64,000 bases of DNA from assembly GCA_021432635.1 (NCBI GenBank), contig MU270036.1:1-64000 (forward strand), in the 5' to 3' direction. The notes beneath the pieces were generated by a model. The model was given only the letters and a program-made list of their open reading frames with translations. It was not told the origin of the DNA and did no database searches. This document shows, in pieces, positions 13,937-27,306 of the stretch; within the stretch, counting starts at the first letter, position 1; each line of letters starts with the position of its first letter. Position numbers and translations under genes: made by a program. This DNA comes from Thozetella sp. PMI_491. Its lineage: Eukaryota > Ascomycota > Sordariomycetes > Chaetosphaeriales > Chaetosphaeriaceae.

Positions 13937-16900
13937 ATGTCGGAATCCAAAGCAGTTTCCTTGGTGAGAAGAGTAGCCACGAGCCTCGAGTCACGGCTGA
14001 GCGAGGCTGAGGATGGTGACCTGGATCAGCTTGATCTTCTGCGAACGATTGGGACCGTGGTCGCCTTGCTTCCTGGGCATAATGGAGGTGAGAAAGAGGA
14101 TGGTTTGACATCGGATTTTGTTGCCTTCTTGTCGGATATGTTGGGTCTGGAGCCTGGGTGGTACACGGGGCCTAGCTCTTTAGAGGTTCGTTCCCAGTAG
14201 CCCGCAGTATTTGTGCTGCTATGAGAATCCGGACCACGATCTAACGTTGACTACTGATATTCGAATAGACCTTGGAGAAAGCTTTTCAGGGTCTGCTGCA
14301 AAGAGTCACGCCACTTCAGCATGAACAGCTACAACACCATATCTCCGGCTTCCTGCCTCGTGGATCGATGCCAGCCCTCGTCCCGGCTTCCGATGAGAAA
14401 GACTTCGATGATTCAAATCAGGACACAGAATCCCCCCCTGGAACTGCTCTGCACCACGTCGGAAACTGCGCTAATCGTATATTCAACTCCATCTTCTCTT
14501 GTGCGTCCCTGGATCACAAACATGAAGCAAGCCTCCTCCTACGAACACATATGAGCGGTCCGGACGATGATCAGGCAGTAGTGTTTGACATACTCTACTG
14601 TGCGGACCCAGATTCCGGGACGATGCATGAGTTGGAAGTACTGGTTCTCAAATCCTCGTATGTTTCTTGTTTCTCTTCATATTGCAAGATCGTCAATTGC
14701 TAAGTTTGCAGTGGTCCGGTGGACTCGGAAATGCCCCCGCCGTCCAAACGGCTGAAAAAGAACCAGAGTCTAGATCACCTCTGTCAGTTCCTCTTCGAAG
14801 CTACCATGGGGTGGTCGAAGCCGATACGACTGCAGCTAGTACATGAAAACACAGCATTTACATTGGGAACCAGCTTCAGGTCGCCAGAGCGGCTCCTACC
14901 AGATGGCGGCTCGAACAAGCCCCTCCCTCTAGGGTCTATTCTCAGCGCCGAGTGGAACTACATGTCGAAGTTGGTTCTGGCGGTCACACTTGCCTATTCA
15001 CTCTATCACCTCTACGGTTCTCCCTGGGTGGGAGATTCGTGGGCGCAGTCGAACATTCTCTTCTTCAAGATGGGCAGCTCGATATCCCTGCAGCCATATC
15101 TTCGATCCGAGTCGCATCTACCGCCTTGCGCCCCATCCGCCGAACCAGTCAGCGTCCCGCTTTCTACCTTCCAATCGCTTCATTCGGAGCCTGGAATACT
15201 ACTATTCGGGGTGACGCTTCTAGAAATCCATCTCGGCCAGTCCATGGAGTCCTACACGGGACAACAGCTCAAAACAACCAATCAGTATCTATTTGCTGCA
15301 CAAGCGACCTTAGACGACCCTAAGATTCAGGAGCACATGACTAAACTATATCGAAAGGTTGTCCGTGCTTGTCTAAACTGCAATTTCGGCGAAACTTGTA
15401 CAACCAAAGAGGAGCTTAGGCGACAAATATACAAGGAAATCGTGAAAGACATGGAGCAGGAACTGGATCACGCCTTTGGAGATCTCCTCGACATGAAAGC
15501 TATAGACAAAAAGGTGAGAACCCTAAGCCTGCAAGGCCATTCTAACCAAGGACCGCTGCGCTTAGTGGCGGCCCCAACATTGAATCCACCCCCGAGAGTG
15601 TAAGTCGCCATGCTTTCTCCTTGACGAGTAGCGCTAAATTTAACGTACAGGACAATGCATGCAAATGGGGGTTTATTTTGGAAAGAACCAGGGTAAGGGA
15701 CCATACGAGAACCGTATTTGCAATGATGCGGATCAGTTCTCGACCGGATTTCATGGCAATACCGACGCTCGTTTCAAGCATAGAAGATGACTGACAAGGT
15801 GACCTAGCTTCTTCAACCAAATGCCGGTGATGACACCAAGCCCCTCGAGAGAAAATATACAAGGAATGCCGGCGCGGTTACATGGAAAGATCAAGCGGCC
15901 TTATAACGAGGCGGACCTCAGGTCGAGTACTGTGCCACGAGCGAGCCGGCTCAGGGGCTGCGTTTATCGCGTGGAAGACAGAGGAAATAGCTCGTACGTA
16001 TCCATTGACTCATTTTTGTCGGTAATCCCCCGTCTCGACGGCATATGTTGATGAGATGCAGCGCCGCTTCCTGGTTTACCGATTTGAAGTTCTTGCACCT
16101 GCATTTACATCAGAGCAGGAGAGAGCCTCTCAGCGACGATGAAAACACAAACTTAATCAAGATGGCTGTTATAGACACGGGCATCGACCTGACACACCCG
16201 GAGTTCGTGAATAACCCTAGGATAGTGGACACCGTTGACCTCGTTAATCTTTCGGCTACCGGCATCTCGTCCCTAGGCGGCGAAGAATTGAGTCCGGACA
16301 CAGCAGATCTGTCCAAAGGCATCCAGGACTTGGACGGCCATGGTACTCACATCGCACATACGATTCTGCAAACTGCTCCGTATACGAACATTTATGTTGC
16401 TAGAGCCTTTGACAAAAGAGAGGCCGGAGAAAATACAGCTGCGCTAGTTGCAAAGGTAAGGACTCCGGGCCTCCGCTGCCCACCTTCCCGTTTGATTCGA
16501 TCCATCGCTGACATACCAAATAGGCCATCCGCCACGCTGTAGAGGTCTGGGAAGTCGACATGATAGTTATGGCTTTCGCCTTTGAAGAAGACGAAAGTGA
16601 GATTGAACGTGCACTGGAACTCGCTACAAGCAGACAGGTTCTCATGTTTGCCGCGGCCTCAAACTTCAGAGCCAACGCTGACGACCCCGTTGGGTTTCCT
16701 GCCCGAGCCCATGACTTCGTGTTCTGCGTTAACTCGTCTGATGCCCAAGATAAAAAGTCTAACTTCAGCCCGCATGCTGTAAGAGGGCGGTTCAACTTCA
16801 GCGCCGTTGGGGAGGGCGTCAAAGCAGCATGGCCTGCCCAGCTATGCCGTGACCATCCGGACAATCCGTACATGACGCTCGATGGCACCTCGTCGGCTAC

Positions 16901-18126: not shown

Positions 18127-19785
18127 ATGTGTGGAGGTGTGTCTCGTGAGCCCAGCTTGATTTGTCGGTCAGCTGAAACCCCCGGTACAAGCAGCGGTGC
18201 GCTGTCGTCAGATTTATGCATAAAAACTGCGCCGGGCCAGCTACTGCAAAAACAGGGCGTAGGGTATGCCGTAGCTTCCTCTCCGTCATTATCTTTGCCG
18301 AGGCGATCGTCCCCGCCCGCTCTTCTGCTGACTGATCAATCTCCAACGAGGGGTCCTGAGAATGCGCCCGAAGCCGGCCTTACTCTCCGAAATGGCGGCA
18401 TTGCGTGTGACGCCAGTGTTCTAGATAGCCCGGATTCTTCCCCTGACGAAGACCGGGTCGATATAGATGGGTCTGAGTCGCCGCGCGATCCTCGGCCCCT
18501 CGCCTCGCGCGGAGAGAATTCTCGGCCGCCAGACAACTCGGTGTGTCTTGACCCAGGCGACCGGGCCGACAAGCAGGACAAGCAGCACCCATTCTCGCCT
18601 CAGGCGATCGGACGCCGCCCACAACACCATCGCAACGCCAAACATAGCAAGCAGCAGACACACCAACAGGAGCGTTCTCCAGCGCCGCCCGCCACAGCAT
18701 CAGCATCACCAAGGGCTATGCAGCAAGACGAGCTAATTTCCCAAGGCATCGCCTCGTGTGAGGCAAGACAGACATCCCGCGCGGAGATATCGCACACAGC
18801 ACCGCTTGGAGCGGAGGCTTCACACAGCCCAAACCATCCTGCAGCACTTTCACCACCAGAGAATAGCACCTCTCGAGAGAGCACGTCACGACGCGTCTCA
18901 AATAGCAAATCAACCGTGATGACAAAGCTATGCCGCCTCGCGTCAAGCGGAAGGTAGGCCGTAGGAGGGCTGCAGCTCGCCACGGTAACTGCGTCAACCA
19001 CGACGATGACGACGCCGAAGGTGTGCAGCAATCTGACAAAGACAAGGGCACCCACCCGCCACCATGCAAACGCCCTAAAATAAGCTCCAAACACCATGCG
19101 GGTACTTGCTGACAAGTTGCGGAGGACGAGGACATGTACAGTCCTTGTCATGACAGCGATAGCGAGCGGGATACTCGGCCACCACAACGCAAACGCCATA
19201 GGTCAAGCTTACAGGCGCAACACACATCAGCCACCGGACGGCAGACAAGTTTGGACTACGCATCACAACAAGTCCAGATTCCTATGCCACCGTCACAAGG
19301 CTCCAACGAACAACAAGAGTCTGCCGAAGCGCTGTCCGCAAAGTTTACGGAATGGTTACTTGAGACGGCGGTCGTCAGGAGCGCAGTAGTGTATAGCGTG
19401 CCGACGTTTCAGCTACAGTTCAAAGCAGACCTTTGGTGTCCAAAACATAGACGCCACGTACTCAACAACCAACAATTTTGACCGGGGGTCTAACTAGTCT
19501 GCCAAGTTGCACCACCCAAGGCCTGGGCCTATAACAAGTGTTGCCTTAACACCTGGCGAGAGGTCTCTTTTTTCCCCGACAGACCTTGACCTACAACCCA
19601 CGGCGTTGACGGAAGAGGCCGAATGGGAGGTTGAGAAGATTCTAGACAGTAGGAAGCGTGGACGAGGTAAGCAAGTCCTCGTAAAATGGGCGGGGTTTGA
19701 GGAACCGACCTGGGAACCAATGCAGAGATATCTCGGGACGGAAGCTTTGCGCGCCTACATAGTGCAGTGGGGGATCCCGCTATAA
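18127..19785 (+). other. Chromodomain-protein locus, gene model unresolved
   Basis: The clearest part is a C-terminal chromodomain (about 19610-19785: AEWEVEKILDSRKRGRGKQV, LVKWAGFEEPTWEP). Before it comes FTEWLLETAVVRSAVVYS, TFQLQF (near 19345-19430), a block I recall from repetitive chromodomain proteins of Sordariomycetes. The region 18300-18960 encodes a long Ser/Pro/Gln-rich, probably disordered stretch. The pieces lie in more than one frame; a 40-nt intron at 19459-19498 could join the last two, but the rest cannot be resolved, so the locus is either split by very short introns or decayed. Whether it is a host gene or part of a repeated mobile unit is open; a second, eroded chromodomain-like piece near 27.5 kb favours a repeat. 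Confidence 0.55.
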
Positions 19786-20979: not shown

Positions 20980-22028
20980 TCAAGGATTTGCCTGTTTTCC
21001 AAGATCATCAAAAGTAAAAACATTCGAGCCCAACTTCCTTCCTTGTCCTGTAAAAGAATGCGACCGACTTGAACTCTCTGCCTGACTTGGGACTCCAGAG
21101 CTGCGGGGGACTTCCAGGGCTTTCAACGGCACAGCCTCGCCAAAGGCGCCTTGGACGCTAATTCCGCCGTAACCAATCGACGTTCCCCCGTATTTTTGCT
21201 CAAACGAACCTTTGACCTTGTCCAAGTCCAAGCCCTGAACGTTCAGTGCATACTCTCCGACACTAGTATTCCCGAAGTCTTGCTTGATATGCACATGGCT
21301 CTCAGCGGCGCTGTTCTCTTCACACAGGAGGAGCTGCTTCTTCAGCATGGTTTCTTGGTCTCTCAGTATGGCTTCTTGGCTCTTCAACATATCCTCCATT
21401 CCCTCGTGGTCCTGGTCGGCCATTTCTTGGAGATGCTTCATTTTGATGCCGAGAAATCCGAGTTGCTGTATGATGTTTCCCATGGCAGCCTCGTTTTTCT
21501 GCTGGAAATTGCGGACCGATTTGATGGTTTGCTCGGATGTGAGACTTTGTAGGGACGGATTAGTGATGGCTACGGCTTGGGGCGGAATCAGGCTTACAGG
21601 TTAATCATTTCAGCTCTTAAGCTGATAAGTTCCAGGGTCCGGGAAATGTCCGTGGGAAAATGCTCAATGCGTCTCTTGCTCGCCGCTGTTACCAACCGGT
21701 TTATCCAGCGCATTTTGCCATCTTTGTCCAAAGGACCGACGCATTTGTCAAGTTGCTTGCGGAAGTCGCTGCACAGTCGCTCGCAATACGAGACAACCGA
21801 TCCGAAGGCCGATTTCTGGTCGACAAGGGTTTGTACTGTTGGCGGCGTTTCCGGCGATCCCTCAAGATATCGACGCAAGCCCTCGAGAACTGATTCAGTT
21901 TCCTTAAGATTAGCTGCGGCTTTTGCAAGGGTCTCGGGGGCATCTTTGATGTCGTTCATGAAGTCATAAAGTTTTTTGACAGCGTCGAGGGCGGTTATGA
22001 CGCTGGCAGAAACACTAAGAGGATCCAT
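20980..22028 (-). CDS. HeLo-like N-domain protein with C-terminal amyloid-type motif repeats
   Basis: Two exons (21598-22028 and 20980-21544; 53-nt intron with GTAAGC donor) give 331 aa. Residues 1-143 match the fungal N-terminal STAND domain of the HeLo-like type (MDPLSVSASVITALDAVKKL, KDAPETLAKAAANLKETESV). Residues 150-220 form a charged coiled coil (EGMEDMLKSQEAILRDQETM). The C-terminus has two copies of one motif: QDFGNTSVGEYALNVQG (232-248) and QKYGGTSIGYGGISVQG (260-276). No NACHT domain is attached. HeLo and HeLo-like domains are membrane-targeting cell-death effectors triggered when their C-terminal prion motif is templated by an NLR; HET-S is the model. The same motif sits at the N-terminus of the divergent NLR 667 bp away, which strongly suggests that they work together. 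Confidence 0.8.
21148..21198 (-). repeat. Amyloid-type motif, copy 2 in the effector
   Basis: Encodes QKYGGTSIGYGGISVQG, 28 residues downstream of copy 1. Two pseudo-repeats of this spacing recall the two-repeat prion domain of HET-s. Confidence 0.7.
21232..21282 (-). repeat. Amyloid-type motif, copy 1 in the effector
   Basis: Encodes QDFGNTSVGEYALNVQG. It shares the pattern Q-x-[FY]-G-[NG]-x(2)-[VI]-x(5)-V-Q-G with copy 2 and, with one residue fewer, with the NLR N-terminus. Confidence 0.7.
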
Positions 22029-22695
22029 GGTCGAAGATTATTGTACGGAAACGACAAGTTTGAGAAAGTTACCAGAGGGGTTAAGTGTAAGGTCTGCAGC
22101 TGGTTTCGCGCAACGCAGCTGCAGCTCGGAATAGGGACCAAGTCGCATTGCTAAGGAGGAAGAGGAATCGAAGTGTGTCTTCGACACTCGTGCGAAGCTT
22201 AAGTATAGGAGTAACTCCACTGCATGCCGTGACTGTTTAGAGCCTAGCCGTGCTGCCTGGAGCCTGGCCAGAACAAAGAAATCCAGGGCGGCGCTTGGTT
22301 GCCAACCAGTAATTGGCGGGGCCGTGTGTGTGCCGGAAGTTAAACTGGCCGTAGAGCATTACTATTTGCTGGTTCTGTTTTTAGATGCTGCAAATATGAA
22401 CTGATCTGCAAGCCACAGTACAATCTAAGGCGGACTAGGCTCTAGGTAGCCATAGCCTAGATCACCGACCCACAGGGACACCGCCTTCACCACTCCATTG
22501 TGGTTCTATAAGGTGAGACTTAAGTCGTCTTCCTCGCCCACGCTCCCGCGGTTGACTGGCTGACTAGACTAGTTAATTTCGGCCCCACCGCTCGGCCAGG
22601 CGTCTTCAGCAACGGCTTCACCTACGTCGCAACTCTTACGGCAAACACTTAATTACGAAGCGATATCTGGGCTCGCTCTCGATAAGGGAAGTAAG
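22029..22695. promoter_or_regulatory. Divergent promoter of the HeLo-like effector and the NLR
   Basis: A 667-bp spacer between two start codons pointing away from each other. No gene seen. The shared spacer fits joint expression of a receptor/effector pair. Confidence 0.5.
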
Positions 22696-25600
22696 ATGGT
22701 GGGGTCGGTGGATCAGCAATTCGGCAACTTAAACGTTGACTCCGGTGTTGGAGTACAAGGCATCGTCGAACAACTTCACATATATCGTAAGTTATCAACG
22801 AAGCGGCTAGCAGTCGGCCTTTCTATCAAACCAACATATCTTGTCGACCCTGGCTAATTTTCTCTAGAAATCGCGCAGGAGATAGGCTTTCCGATTGCAG
22901 ACGATGCGATACGTGACTCGTACGCCGACGGGCGCAATGCAAGATGTCATCCAGACACCCGAAAGGAGCTCCTCCGACAGATAGAAGAATGGGTAGACGA
23001 CCCTCATAGCGAGCCGATATTCTGGTTGAATGGAAAAGCAGGCACGGGAAAGACTACCATTTCTCGCAAGGTCGCCGAAAGATTTGATCCCGATTGCGTC
23101 CGCTTCTTCTTCAAAAGAGATGGTGGAGATCGCGCAAATGCAAAGCTCTTTTCCACCACGATTGCCGCCCAGCTTGTGGACTGGGAGCGTGATTTAGAAC
23201 CACATGTCAGAAATGCTCTCAAGGATAAATCTTGGAGATATAGGAAGGGCCCGGCCGAGCAGTTTGAGGCCTTCGTCTTGGGGCCTCTTTGCAAGCTGAC
23301 GAGCGATCCGGATAAGCTGAGGACGATCGTGATGGTCGTCGACGCCCTAGACGAATGTGGCGAGACCGATAGCGTCAAACGTCTTATTCACACCCTATCC
23401 CGAACAGAGAATTTGAGTTCGGTGCGGGTGAGAATCTTCATCACCAGCCGACCTAAGCCGTCATTTCTTGGTGCTTTCCGCGATATCGAAGGCAAATATC
23501 GGAAAGTGCCTCTTGAAGATGCATCGGGGATCGGACACGACCTAACTAAATTCTTCGACACAGAATTTACCAGGATCCGGGAGGAATGCAACGACCGGTA
23601 TCCTGAGGACCTGCAACTAGAGCCGAAATGGCCGGGCGAGTACATCATTCAAACTCTCGTTCACAGAGCCGTTCCTCTGTTCATTTACGCGGCAACAGTG
23701 TGCAGCTTCATAGCTCAAGATCCTCCATTCAACCCGGCAGAACAACTTGAGAAGGTCCTGAATCATCAAACTAGAGCCAATGATTCTGAGTTTAAATACC
23801 TCGACGAAATTTATCTCCAAATCCTCAAGGAGGCAGTTGGAACTCTTGGACAGGAGGGTCGAGTGAAAGAGTTCCGAGAGGTGGTTGGACCAATCATTCT
23901 CCTCGCCAAACCTCTATCACGGTTGTCGCTTTCGGAGCTACTCGGCAGTACCGAACGAACCTTATTCAGCTGGTTCCAATACCTTCACTCCGTTCTCAAC
24001 GTTCCGTTCGGGAGAGAAGAACCTATCAGTGTGTTTCACGACTCGTTTCGTGACTTCCTCATCGATCCCGTCCGTGCGAGCGAGTTCTGCATCGACGAGA
24101 GGAAAGTCCACCAGAACCTTGCAAGACACTGTATCCAGCGTCTGGAACCATGCCTTAGGAAAGACATCTGCAATTTGAAAAAGCCGGGAGAAGCCCGCAA
24201 CGAGGGCAACGCAAAAGATCTGGACATAAACCTACAATACGCCTGCCGGTACTGGGCCTTCCATCGAGAGCGAAGTAAGGAGCGTATAGGAGACACGGAC
24301 GAAATCCACAGCTTCCTTAGACGCCACTTCCTTCACTGGCTTGAAGCCTTGAGTCTCATTGGTAGTATATCTGAGTGTGTTGGTTTAATAGACGGCTTAC
24401 GACGTATGGTTGACGTGAGTAAATCTCTAGTATTATATCTCGATACCTGCTAAGAGAAGTCATTTAGTCTGCTAAAGGCAGCGAAATCTCGAAATTTCTT
24501 TTCGATGCAGAGCGATTTGTTCTTCACCATCTTCCAATAATTGACACAGCACCCCTGCAGCTTTATACTTCAGCGCTTATTTTTTCTCCAGAGAAAAGCC
24601 TTATTCGACAGAGATTCAAAGAATACATACCGAACTGGATAAAGCTTGCACCTATCATGGAATGTGATTGGAGTCCTCATTTACATACGCTCAGACCATT
24701 TAACCCATGGAATCACGACTATGTCCGCTCAGTAACCTTCTCACCCGACTCGACGCTTGTCGTCTCAGCCGGCGACAACGGCAGAGTTGATATCTGGCGT
24801 GCAGTTCCAGGTACGCTGCAACAGACGCTTACAAGCCCTGGCGGCCAGATCTATTCGGTAGCCTTCTCACCCGACTCGAAGCTCATCGCCTCAGCCTCAG
24901 ACGACGGTGCGGTTCGGATCTGGGATGCAGTTGCAGGCACGCNNNNNNNNNNNNNNNNNNNNNNNNNNNNNNNNNNNNNNNNNNNNNNNNNNNNNNNNNN
25001 NNNNNNNNNNNNNNNNNNNNNNNNNNNNNNNNNNNNNNNNNNNNNNNNNNNNNNNNNNNNNNNNNNNNNNNNNNNNNNNNNNNNNNNNNNNNNNNNNNNN
25101 NNNNNNNNNNNNNNNNNNNNNNNNNNNNNNNNNNNNNNNNNNNNNNNNNNNNNNNNNNNNNNNNNNNNNNNNNNNNNNNNNNNNNNNNNNNNNNNNNNNN
25201 NNNNNNNNNNNNNNNNNNNNNNNNNNNNNNNAGTCATAGCTACAAAGTTAATTCAGTAGCCTTCTCGCCCGACTCAAAGCTTATTGCCTCAGCTACGTCC
25301 TACGGCGGGGTCGAGATCTGGGATACGGCTGCCGGCGCGCTGCAGCGGACGCTCACCGGTCATGGCGGCGAAGTTAATTCGGTAGCCTTCTCGCCCGACT
25401 CGAAGCTTATCGCCTCAGCCTCGAATGACTATTCGATTAAGCTCTGGGATACAGCTGCCTGCACGTTACAGCGGACGCTCACTGGTCATGAGGACAAAGT
25501 TAATTCGGTAGCCTTCTCACCCGACTCGAAGCTTATCGCCTCAGCCTCGAATGACTATTCGATTAAGATCTGGGATACAGCTGCCTGCACGCTACAGCCG

Positions 25601-26662
25601 CGTACGGGCCGTAGACGCGGGGTCCATTCGGTAGCCTTCTCACCCGACTCGAAGCTCATCGTCTCGGCTTCACACGGCAACACGGTCGAGATCTGGGATG
25701 CGGCTGCCGGCACGCTGCAGCGAACACTCACTGGTCATGGCGGCAAAGTTAATTCGGTGGTTTTCTCGGCCGACTCGAAGCTCATCGCGATGGCTTCGAG
25801 CCGCGGCTGGGTCAAGATCTGTGATGCGGCTACCGGCACGCGACAGCAGACACTCGCAAGCGGCCGCGGCCAGATTCATTCGGTGGCTTTTTCACCTGAC
25901 TCGAAGCTCGTTGCCTCGAAACTTTTCTTGAAGCGAGCCAGGTCGGGGATTAGTCATGAGCCCTCGTACGACTATACGGTTGAGATCTGGGATACGGGCG
26001 CCGGCACGCTGCAACAGACGCTTATGGGTAATAGCAGCTATGGTTCAGTAGCCTTCTCACCTAACTCGAACCTTGTGGCCTCGGCCTCATGCGGCGGCAT
26101 GGTCGAGATCTGGGATGCAGCTGTTGGCACAGTACAGTCACTCACGTGCAGTAGCAGCCATATTTATTTAGTGGCCTTCTCACCCGACTCGAAGCTCGTC
26201 GCTTTAGCTTTACACGACAATACGGTCAAGATCTGGGATGCGGCGGCCGGCACGCTGCAGCGAACGCTCACTGGTCATGACGGCAAAGTTAATTCGGTGG
26301 TTTTCTCGGCCGACTCGAAGCTCATCGCGATGGCTTCGAGCCGCGGCTGGGTCAAGATCTGTGATGCGGCTGCCGGTACGCAGCAGACACTAGATATCGG
26401 CAAAAGCATTGAAATTATCTCATTCGGTTCTACCAATAACTATCTCCATACAGATATTGGCGTTATCAATCTAGATACCGAAACTGCTCCTGGCTACCAA
26501 GGCTATGGAATAAGCTCCGACAAAGCGTGGATCACAAGGAATTCAAAAAAGTTACTCTGGCTCCCCAAGGAGAATAGGCCATCCTGCTCAGCTGTAGCGG
26601 CTTCGACAATGGTCATTGGCGGTGAAACAGGACGCATCGCCATAATAAGTTTCGAGGACTAG
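22696..26662 (+). CDS. NACHT-WD40 NLR with N-terminal amyloid-type motif
   Basis: Three exons (22696-22786, 22868-24414, 24468-26662); about 1280 aa allowing for an internal assembly gap. Exon 1 encodes only the first 30 residues, with QQFGNLNVDSGVGVQG at 7-22. The NACHT region opens with CHPDTRKELLRQIEEW, has Walker A GKAGTGKTT at 86-94 and Walker B MVVDALDEC near 186-194, and continues through the usual helical part to SLIRQRFKEYIPNWI. The C-terminus is a WD40 propeller: two repeats before the gap, about nine after it, most with VNSVAFSPDSKLIASAS and IWDTAAGTLQRTLTGH cores. In HNWD-type NLRs the WD40 array is the ligand-binding, fast-evolving recognition surface, NACHT drives oligomerisation, and a short N-terminal prion motif seeds the effector. 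Here the motif matches the adjacent HeLo-like protein. Confidence 0.88.
22714..22761 (+). other. Amyloid-type motif at the NLR N-terminus
   Basis: Encodes QQFGNLNVDSGVGVQG, the third copy of the motif. It is isolated in exon 1, separated by an 81-nt intron from the NACHT exon, so it is a swappable unit. The class (HRAM, sigma, PP or new) cannot be fixed by eye. Confidence 0.7.
24943..25231. other. Assembly gap (289 N) inside the WD40 array
   Basis: A run of 289 N falls between near-identical WD40 units. The codon phases on the two sides do not agree with 289 bases (about 287 or 290 would), so the gap length is only an estimate and the true repeat number is unknown. Confidence 0.95.
25682..25840 (+). 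repeat. Recent WD40 duplication, copy A
   Basis: Compared by eye with 26222-26380, this 159-bp stretch differs at about 6 positions and lies exactly 540 bp (180 codons) away. It includes an unusual unit with KICDAA in place of KIWDAA and AMASSRG in place of ASASNDY. Such homogenised units point to recent duplication or gene conversion. Confidence 0.8.
26222..26380 (+). repeat. Recent WD40 duplication, copy B
   Basis: Partner of 25682-25840. Both copies share the odd unit ending in WVKICDAA. Confidence 0.8.
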
Positions 26663-26833
26663 TTGGAAGTAGTTTTATCTATTGGAGCTCAACATTAGCT
26701 GAGGAACTTCCCTACATAGCTTACTTGACTGAAGTTTGGTTCTACTGCTTGGTAGTCGATACATTTAGCACGCTAATTGGACGCCCGTCGTAACTCACTC
26801 GCGACGATGGAATAGGGCAAGGATGGGTTTCAC

Positions 26834-27306
26834 GCCAAACAGATTGGAAGAAAGCGGTGCTAAAGGTCTTGAAAAAGCAACCGAGCCTGTCGGACGAGAT
26901 TCTCGCAGCCATAGTGGCGTGCCTCAAGGACTCCTCCTGGTCCGCTAGAGAGGCGGCACTAAACGTCTTGCAAGAGCGACCGAGCCTGTCAGACGAGATA
27001 CTTGTAGCAGTGGCAAAACTACTAGAATCTGAAAGTGCTAGCGCCCTAGCAGAGGCCGTCCTGAGAAGACATAAGGAATTCTATTCCACCCTTCTCAGCG
27101 GCCCATTTGTAGAATCACTATTTAAGATTTTGTTGCGGCGAAGCTTTAAGGAACAATAGAGCTGGTACGTCGAGGATGGGAGGTCCTGCGTTCACATGCC
27201 AGATTGGGTCGGAAGCGCTCCGACTGATAACGAGCAAGAGTTCTGGAACACGGTTAAAAAGGCACAGCCACCAGGCATTCCATCTATGGCTTTAGGTTCG
27301 CCATAA
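26834..27306 (+). pseudogene. Relic of the C-terminal part of a HEAT-repeat NLR
   Basis: One frame encodes two HEAT-like units (LKKQPSLSDEILAAIVACLK and LQERPSLSDEILVAVAKLLE), then FYSTLLSGPFVESLF and, past an in-frame TAG at 27157-27159, SWYVEDGRSCVHMPDW and WNTVKKAQPPGIP. I recall the same order at the end of fungal NACHT-HEAT receptors. No start, NACHT or long HEAT array is present, so this is a truncated tail of a second NLR type, left just downstream of the WD40 receptor. Confidence 0.7.

Follow-up and report, generated by a model that had tools for sequence, protein, structure and literature searches.

The stretch of DNA analysed here (the window) comprises positions 1–64,000 of contig MU270036.1 (951 kb) in the 72.3-Mb genome of Thozetella sp. 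PMI_491. It contains two adjacent genes in head-to-head (divergent) orientation, which encode a HeLo-like effector and a NACHT-type (NPHP3_N)/WD40 receptor of the NOD-like receptor (NLR) type. Their start codons are separated by 667 bp (22029..22695), a region that presumably acts as a divergent promoter. The effector gene (20980..22028, minus strand) consists of exon 1 (22028–21598), a 53-nucleotide GT-AG intron (21597–21545) and exon 2 (21544–20980, including the stop codon); the protein of 331 amino acids (aa) obtained from the spliced model was identical to NCBI GQ53DRAFT_823466 of the same strain. This protein matched PF17111 (HeLo-like; Pfam name PigL_N) with an E-value of 4.4e-9 (36.5 bits, cut-off 27.2) and, overlapping it, PF17107 (SesA) with an E-value of 6.7e-7 (29.9 bits, cut-off 26.3). 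Both matches exceeded their cut-offs, and the effector domain is of an NLR-associated type that is already known. The receptor gene (22696..26662, plus strand) was modelled with exons at 22696–22786, 22868–24414 and 24468–26662 and introns at 22787–22867 and 24415–24467, all predicted from the sequence. Within the first 704 aa, PF24883 (9.5e-26) and WD40 (1.6e-17) were detected, and the NACHT family PF05729 scored 24.8 bits, under its cut-off of 26.7. A first-pass annotation of this DNA had named a HeLo-like effector and a NACHT-WD40 receptor, and the Pfam matches bear out both designations, with PF05729 itself remaining below its threshold. The WD40 units of the receptor are mostly spaced by 123–126 nucleotides, and one 281-nucleotide pair is 86% identical.

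A motif of about 17 residues was found twice at the C-terminus of the effector and once at the N-terminus of the receptor, and all three strings reported in the first-pass annotation were present. In the effector, copy r1 (QDFGNTSVGEYALNVQG) spans residues 232–248 (21232..21282, minus strand) and copy r2 (QKYGGTSIGYGGISVQG) residues 260–276 (21148..21198, minus strand). In the receptor, copy r0 (QQFGNLNVDSGVGVQG) spans residues 7–22 (22714..22761, plus strand), is encoded in the short exon 1 and is one residue shorter than the effector copies. The motif ends with V-Q-G, followed by I, L or A. None of the copies contains proline, and each has 2–4 charges per 20–21 residues and 3–6 glycines. Around Q3, r1 and r2 bear opposite charges (K2/E2 and D4/K4). 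Chou-Fasman-type averages for strand and helix were 1.03 and 0.97 (r1), 1.04 and 0.90 (r2), and 1.13 and 0.92 (r0), values that favour strand and decide nothing.

The likeness among the copies was compared with shuffled sequences. For 21–22-mers, the scores of r0/r1 (38) and r0/r2 (37) were each reached by 2 of 5000 shuffles and that of r1/r2 (45) by none of 5000; equally good matches among shuffled sequences, which the first-pass annotation had named as grounds for rejection, therefore amounted to at most 2/5000 per pairwise comparison. When r0 was aligned to the entire effector, its score of 38 was reached by 4 of 2000 shuffles, and receptor residues 1–55 against the entire effector gave a score of 46 (5 of 1000). 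We also scanned 8,548 open segments (429,914 residues) from the window and further loci of the same genome, a small part of the 72 Mb in which some DNA was counted twice and from which seven loci overlapping the pair had been dropped. In this set, r0 was the top non-self match of both r1 (38, next 33) and r2 (37, next 35). Strict and loose text patterns, applied in six frames to own-genome loci, matched at the window pair only. Identical residues mostly use different codons (6 of 8 for r0/r1, 4 of 6 for r0/r2 and 5 of 8 for r1/r2), indicating that the likeness is not the product of a recent DNA copy.

The three best paralogues of the receptor in the same genome (C61, C52 and C10) are 42–45% identical to it, and align only from receptor residues 21–28, at or just behind the end of the motif. 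Upstream of NACHT, these paralogues carry HET-like sequence, recognized by eye from its likeness to the database homologue P0003, in which Pfam found an N-terminal HET domain where the window receptor has the motif. The motif thus takes the place that an effector-type domain would have at the N-terminus, which is the arrangement given for amyloid-signalling NLRs (PMC5485727). Lower-scoring receptor matches of the same genome were checked for the motif pattern only, and yielded no match. An additional, Rosetta-stone argument, in which a HeLo-like domain was thought to be fused to the receptor homologues P0002 of Chaetomium globosum and P0004 of Fusarium, was dropped. The pre-NACHT region of both had first been taken as HeLo-like by eye, but Pfam found no such domain in P0002 or among the best 25 of the 54 families for P0004, and BLASTP of the effector against P0002 gave just an E-value of 0.25 over 61 residues, leaving the fused domain unsupported.

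The same short motif at an NLR N-terminus and an effector C-terminus encoded by adjacent genes is what characterizes this general kind of system, and the 2+1 layout, with two effector copies and one receptor copy, lies at the positions known from HET-S/NWD2, as the first-pass annotation had proposed. With the gene structures, the domain types, the 2+1 layout, the non-chance likeness, the head-to-head order and the HET-type N-terminus of the closest paralogues all observed directly, we consider it likely that effector and receptor make up a module of two components for cell death, of the NLR/amyloid type known from fungi. If the pair works as HET-S/NWD2 does (PMC5485727), a trigger bound by the WD40 array would cause the receptor to oligomerise via its nucleotide-binding domain, and the clustered r0 motifs would then adopt the fold of a beta-arch or of a rung in a beta-solenoid. 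This rung would template both unfolded motifs, r1 and r2, on the HeLo-like protein, and their conversion would free the N-terminal helical HeLo-like domain to attack the plasma membrane, possibly by forming pores, and thereby kill the cell compartment. The whole proposed course, from oligomerisation, amyloid formation and templating to pore formation and death, is modelled on that pair; with oppositely charged residues on either side of Q3, r1 and r2 would be suited to in-register stacking.

Several observations weigh against a cell-death module of this type. The receptor splice model was predicted from the sequence alone, and the WD40 array is incompletely assembled, with a gap of 289 N at 24943..25231; arrays in which the WD40 repeats closely resemble one another assemble poorly from short reads (PMC12222747). 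An AlphaFold2 single-sequence model of the effector (mean predicted local distance difference test score, 43) had helices up to residue 225, nothing reliable beyond and no strands at r1 or r2, although it is too poor to count either way. The motif class rests on one pair. Effector-based searches of 5.8 billion proteins returned the effector alone: the whole protein gave 2,616 candidates and residues 222–290 gave 19, with a single match, the effector itself, in each case. Receptor residues 1–130 gave 131 candidates and three homologues, all without the motif and none from Thozetella. These searches reach only relatives that share exact 5-residue words, and cover proteins rather than genome or viral contigs, so the absence is weak evidence; within them, the co-occurrence in other genomes that the first-pass annotation had set beforehand as support was not found. 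A search of the fungus's own genome with the 49-aa r1–r2 stretch (E ≤10) recovered only r1–r2 and missed r0. To these points are added the polar residues at two hydrophobic positions described below. Profile searches of the PDB gave eight matches for the three copies (best E-value, 0.35) and one for the effector tail (0.55); these matches, with enzymes, small GTPases and Tob1 among them, were taken for chance. The profile-to-PDB approach can work, because a control profile of HET-s-type tails from the same genome matched HET-s(218–289) with an E-value of 0.029.

As no Thozetella protein was returned for receptor residues 1–130 in the searched length range, protein databases may lack a model of the receptor that includes the motif.

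The first-pass annotation had placed the motif outside the HRAM (HET-s-related), sigma and PP consensus sequences. This placement is upheld by the Pfam models and qualified by partial agreement with the HRAM rules. The motif-bearing pieces of both proteins matched 0 Pfam families, so that the hits to HET-s/Ses-type models named as possible support did not appear. The HET-s, sigma and PP models were absent from all three families matched by the effector and from the best 25 of the 43 families listed for the long receptor, and matches of PF11558, PP/Ses_B and NACHT_sigma elsewhere in the genome did not include the window pair. The likeness to HET-S/NWD2 and HRAM1–5 lies in the two C-terminal effector copies, the adjacent NLR with one N-terminal copy and the loop length. 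HRAM systems have two repeats in the effector and one in the NLR, and a loop of 6–18 aa lies between the repeats in 154 of 155 published HRAM proteins (PMC4518210); in the HRAM register, r1 (230–250) and r2 (258–278) are separated by 7 aa. Most HRAM and PP motifs are located at positions 5–9 of NLR N-termini (PMC9815663), and r0 begins at residue 7. HRAM rules specify G19, hydrophobic residues at 5, 8, 10, 16 and 18, and a preferred R/K15 (PMC4518210). The window motif agrees in G19, Q3 (as in HRAM2), the aromatic residue at 5, V/I at 10 and Q18 (as in HRAM4), and it may be a strongly diverged HRAM, a reading we hold tentatively and somewhat short of probable. In r1 and r2, however, positions 8 and 16 are polar, R/K15 is missing, and the hydrophobic residues at 15 and 17 are one place out of HRAM phase. 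In a register chosen after the motif had been seen, r1 and r2 scored 5/8 on the printed HRAM position rules and r0 5–7/8, depending on gap placement, compared with 7–8 for five HET-s-type repeats of the same genome; a score of at least 5 was reached by 30 of 775 background windows and by 235 (r1) and 271 (r2) of 5000 shuffles. Compared directly with those five repeats, the motif did not rise above shuffles (15 pairwise tests, lowest 172/2000; combined fraction, 0.24–0.42). Many HRAMs are less than 10–15% identical to HET-s r1 and r2, and the charge complementarity described for HRAMs concerns position 4, not position 2 (PMC4518210). The missing PF11558 match is a weak criterion; this model covers part of the HRAM1–5 families and matches just 38 of the 155 published HRAM proteins (PMC4518210). 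Unlike HRAMs, the window motif has the V-Q-G end, an r0 shorter by one residue and no profile match, and unlike HET-S, the effector is HeLo-like (PF17111) rather than HeLo, as is the protein bearing HRAM4 of Podospora (PMC4518210). An origin in the PP/RHIM-like class, through an insertion and a duplication, would account for another likeness: the PP motifs elsewhere in this genome start with [FY]-G-[NDS]-x-N and lead to G-V-Q-x-G, and the window motif reads [FY]-G-[NG]-x-[NS] ... V-Q-G. The combined shuffle fraction against three such motifs was 0.031–0.046, which is marginal, and the best pair (r0 with the C105 motif) gave 0.009–0.034; these values, from nine pairs and two gap costs, are weak after many comparisons. 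The PP cores N-x-G-x-Q-x-G-x-N and G-x-Q-x-G were found in 0 of 3 window copies, whereas the same-genome PP motifs, used as a positive control, had them in 2 of 3 and 3 of 3, respectively. Moreover, sigma and PP motifs are single-copy in HeLo-type effectors (PMC4518210). We regard a PP origin as rather improbable. Like PP pairs such as HELLP/PNT1 (PF17046, named Ses_B), the window has a HeLo-like effector beside an NLR and a motif that starts with [FY]-G-[NDSG] and includes V-Q; it differs from them in lacking the G-x-Q-x-G core and in having two effector copies instead of one. The motif is best seen as divergent, as judged from its sequence: it resembles HRAMs in the number of copies and the length of the loop, and bears a V-Q-G signature outside the consensus statements checked. 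Both the HRAM and the PP derivation would be compatible with the proposed cell-death module. We lean slightly towards an HRAM derivation over a PP origin or a free-standing class, the last of which seems somewhat unlikely.

Two further explanations would dispense with amyloid signalling. In one, the motif mediates homotypic docking, with a short beta-strand contact recruiting the effector and crowding alone activating it. The short length and moderate polarity of the motif speak for this reading, and none of the present measurements separates docking from amyloid; nevertheless, the copies lack proline, have few charges and several glycines, and are duplicated in the effector, and the layout is that published for tested amyloid pairs (PMC9815663, PMC5485727, PMC4518210), making docking alone very unlikely. 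In the other, the likeness of two unrelated neighbours is accidental. Although the motif is short and was selected after inspection, the shuffle counts, the top rank among the open segments and the location of the copies at precisely those termini where other pairs carry theirs leave coincidence with hardly any credibility. The NLR/amyloid-type cell-death module remains the favoured explanation.

Among other published motifs, that of the GDQN pair of Fusarium oxysporum (PMC12261475) resembles the window motif in being a one-pair motif, located at the N-terminus of a probable NLR and the C-terminus of a SesA-type effector, but its printed pattern does not fit here. PUASM (PMC9815663) is likewise a short glycine-rich motif common to a NACHT or NACHT-WD40 NLR and an effector; its effector is PNP_UDP, and its pattern FxGxGxQxxGxGxF is absent from the window motif. 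In the text passages covered from the open-access literature, no description of the pair or motif was found, and Thozetella and NLR occurred together in PMC4518210 only. A match to one of the unassigned NLR motif logos NLR17, NLR19, NLR20 or NLR34 of PMC9815663 might exist. Table 1 of PMC4518210 lists two HRAM proteins of Thozetella, one HRAM1 and one HRAM3. We think that the window effector is neither of them, because its 331 aa exceed the 310-aa limit of that study and because HRAM3 has H3 where the motif has Q3; a shorter, older effector gene model behind one of the listed proteins is possible. The survey in PMC4518210 was limited to HeLo-type proteins of ≤310 aa, and the paired search in PMC9815663 took NACHT receptors from PF05729. 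Published surveys could therefore easily miss the pair, given the length of the effector and a receptor score below today's PF05729 cut-off. The same paired search set minima of 5 motif sites and 3 non-redundant pairs, through which the motif could also be missed.

Other amyloid-motif systems were detected in the same genome by profile searches, and two of them, the HET-s-type effector on C20 with its one-repeat exon and the PP-type pair on C15, add support for the proposed module. PF11558 exceeded its cut-off on C76 and C20. At C20:190381–191531, a HET-s-type effector is accompanied by a divergent exon on the opposite strand with one repeat (16.1 bits, below cut-off), which reads as a receptor first exon; behind it, no NACHT but a CCHC-like or transposon-like stretch was seen by eye, and this receptor may be interrupted. 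The PP/Ses_B model exceeded its cut-off on C105, where the motif (C105:73886–73936) lies at the end of an open frame, and matched weakly on C15 (14.8 bits, below cut-off). The C15 match is the N-terminus of a frame judged NB-ARC-like by eye; at C15:917373–918500, this NLR-like frame, starting with FGSHNYGVQVGG, is head-to-head with a PF17111 gene ending in FGDYNKGVQIGGN, forming a PP/RHIM-type pair. The window receptor differs from it in being of the NACHT/WD40 type, the NB-ARC assignment resting on inspection rather than a profile. NACHT_sigma (PF17106) gave four matches, none over cut-off. Near the window pair, a chromodomain reading frame (PF00385, 2.7e-8; 19498–19782) about 1.2 kb from the effector stop codon is perhaps the remains of a mobile element. 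A HEAT-repeat-like open frame (PF12765, 4.8e-5; 26794–27156) directly behind the receptor stop codon is perhaps a remnant of the sensor array of another receptor. A DUF7580 open frame (PF24476, 1.4e-26; 14704–15600) is located a few kb from the pair.

The system found in the window is thus of a kind already known, with a divergent motif that may provide a further private signalling channel. It is conceivable, though unlikely, that the motif represents a further amyloid family, one that is orthogonal to the two channels, HET-s-type and PP-type, that this fungus also has and that unites the two-rung layout of HET-s with a PP/RHIM-like [FY]-G-[N/G]...V-Q element; such a family would naturally connect HET-s motifs with RHIM motifs. 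If the private channel is real, the diversity of motifs in fungal NLR signalling has been under-counted, and one fungus carrying HET-s-type, PP-type and window motifs would offer a natural test of the number of amyloid signals that can operate in parallel without cross-seeding.

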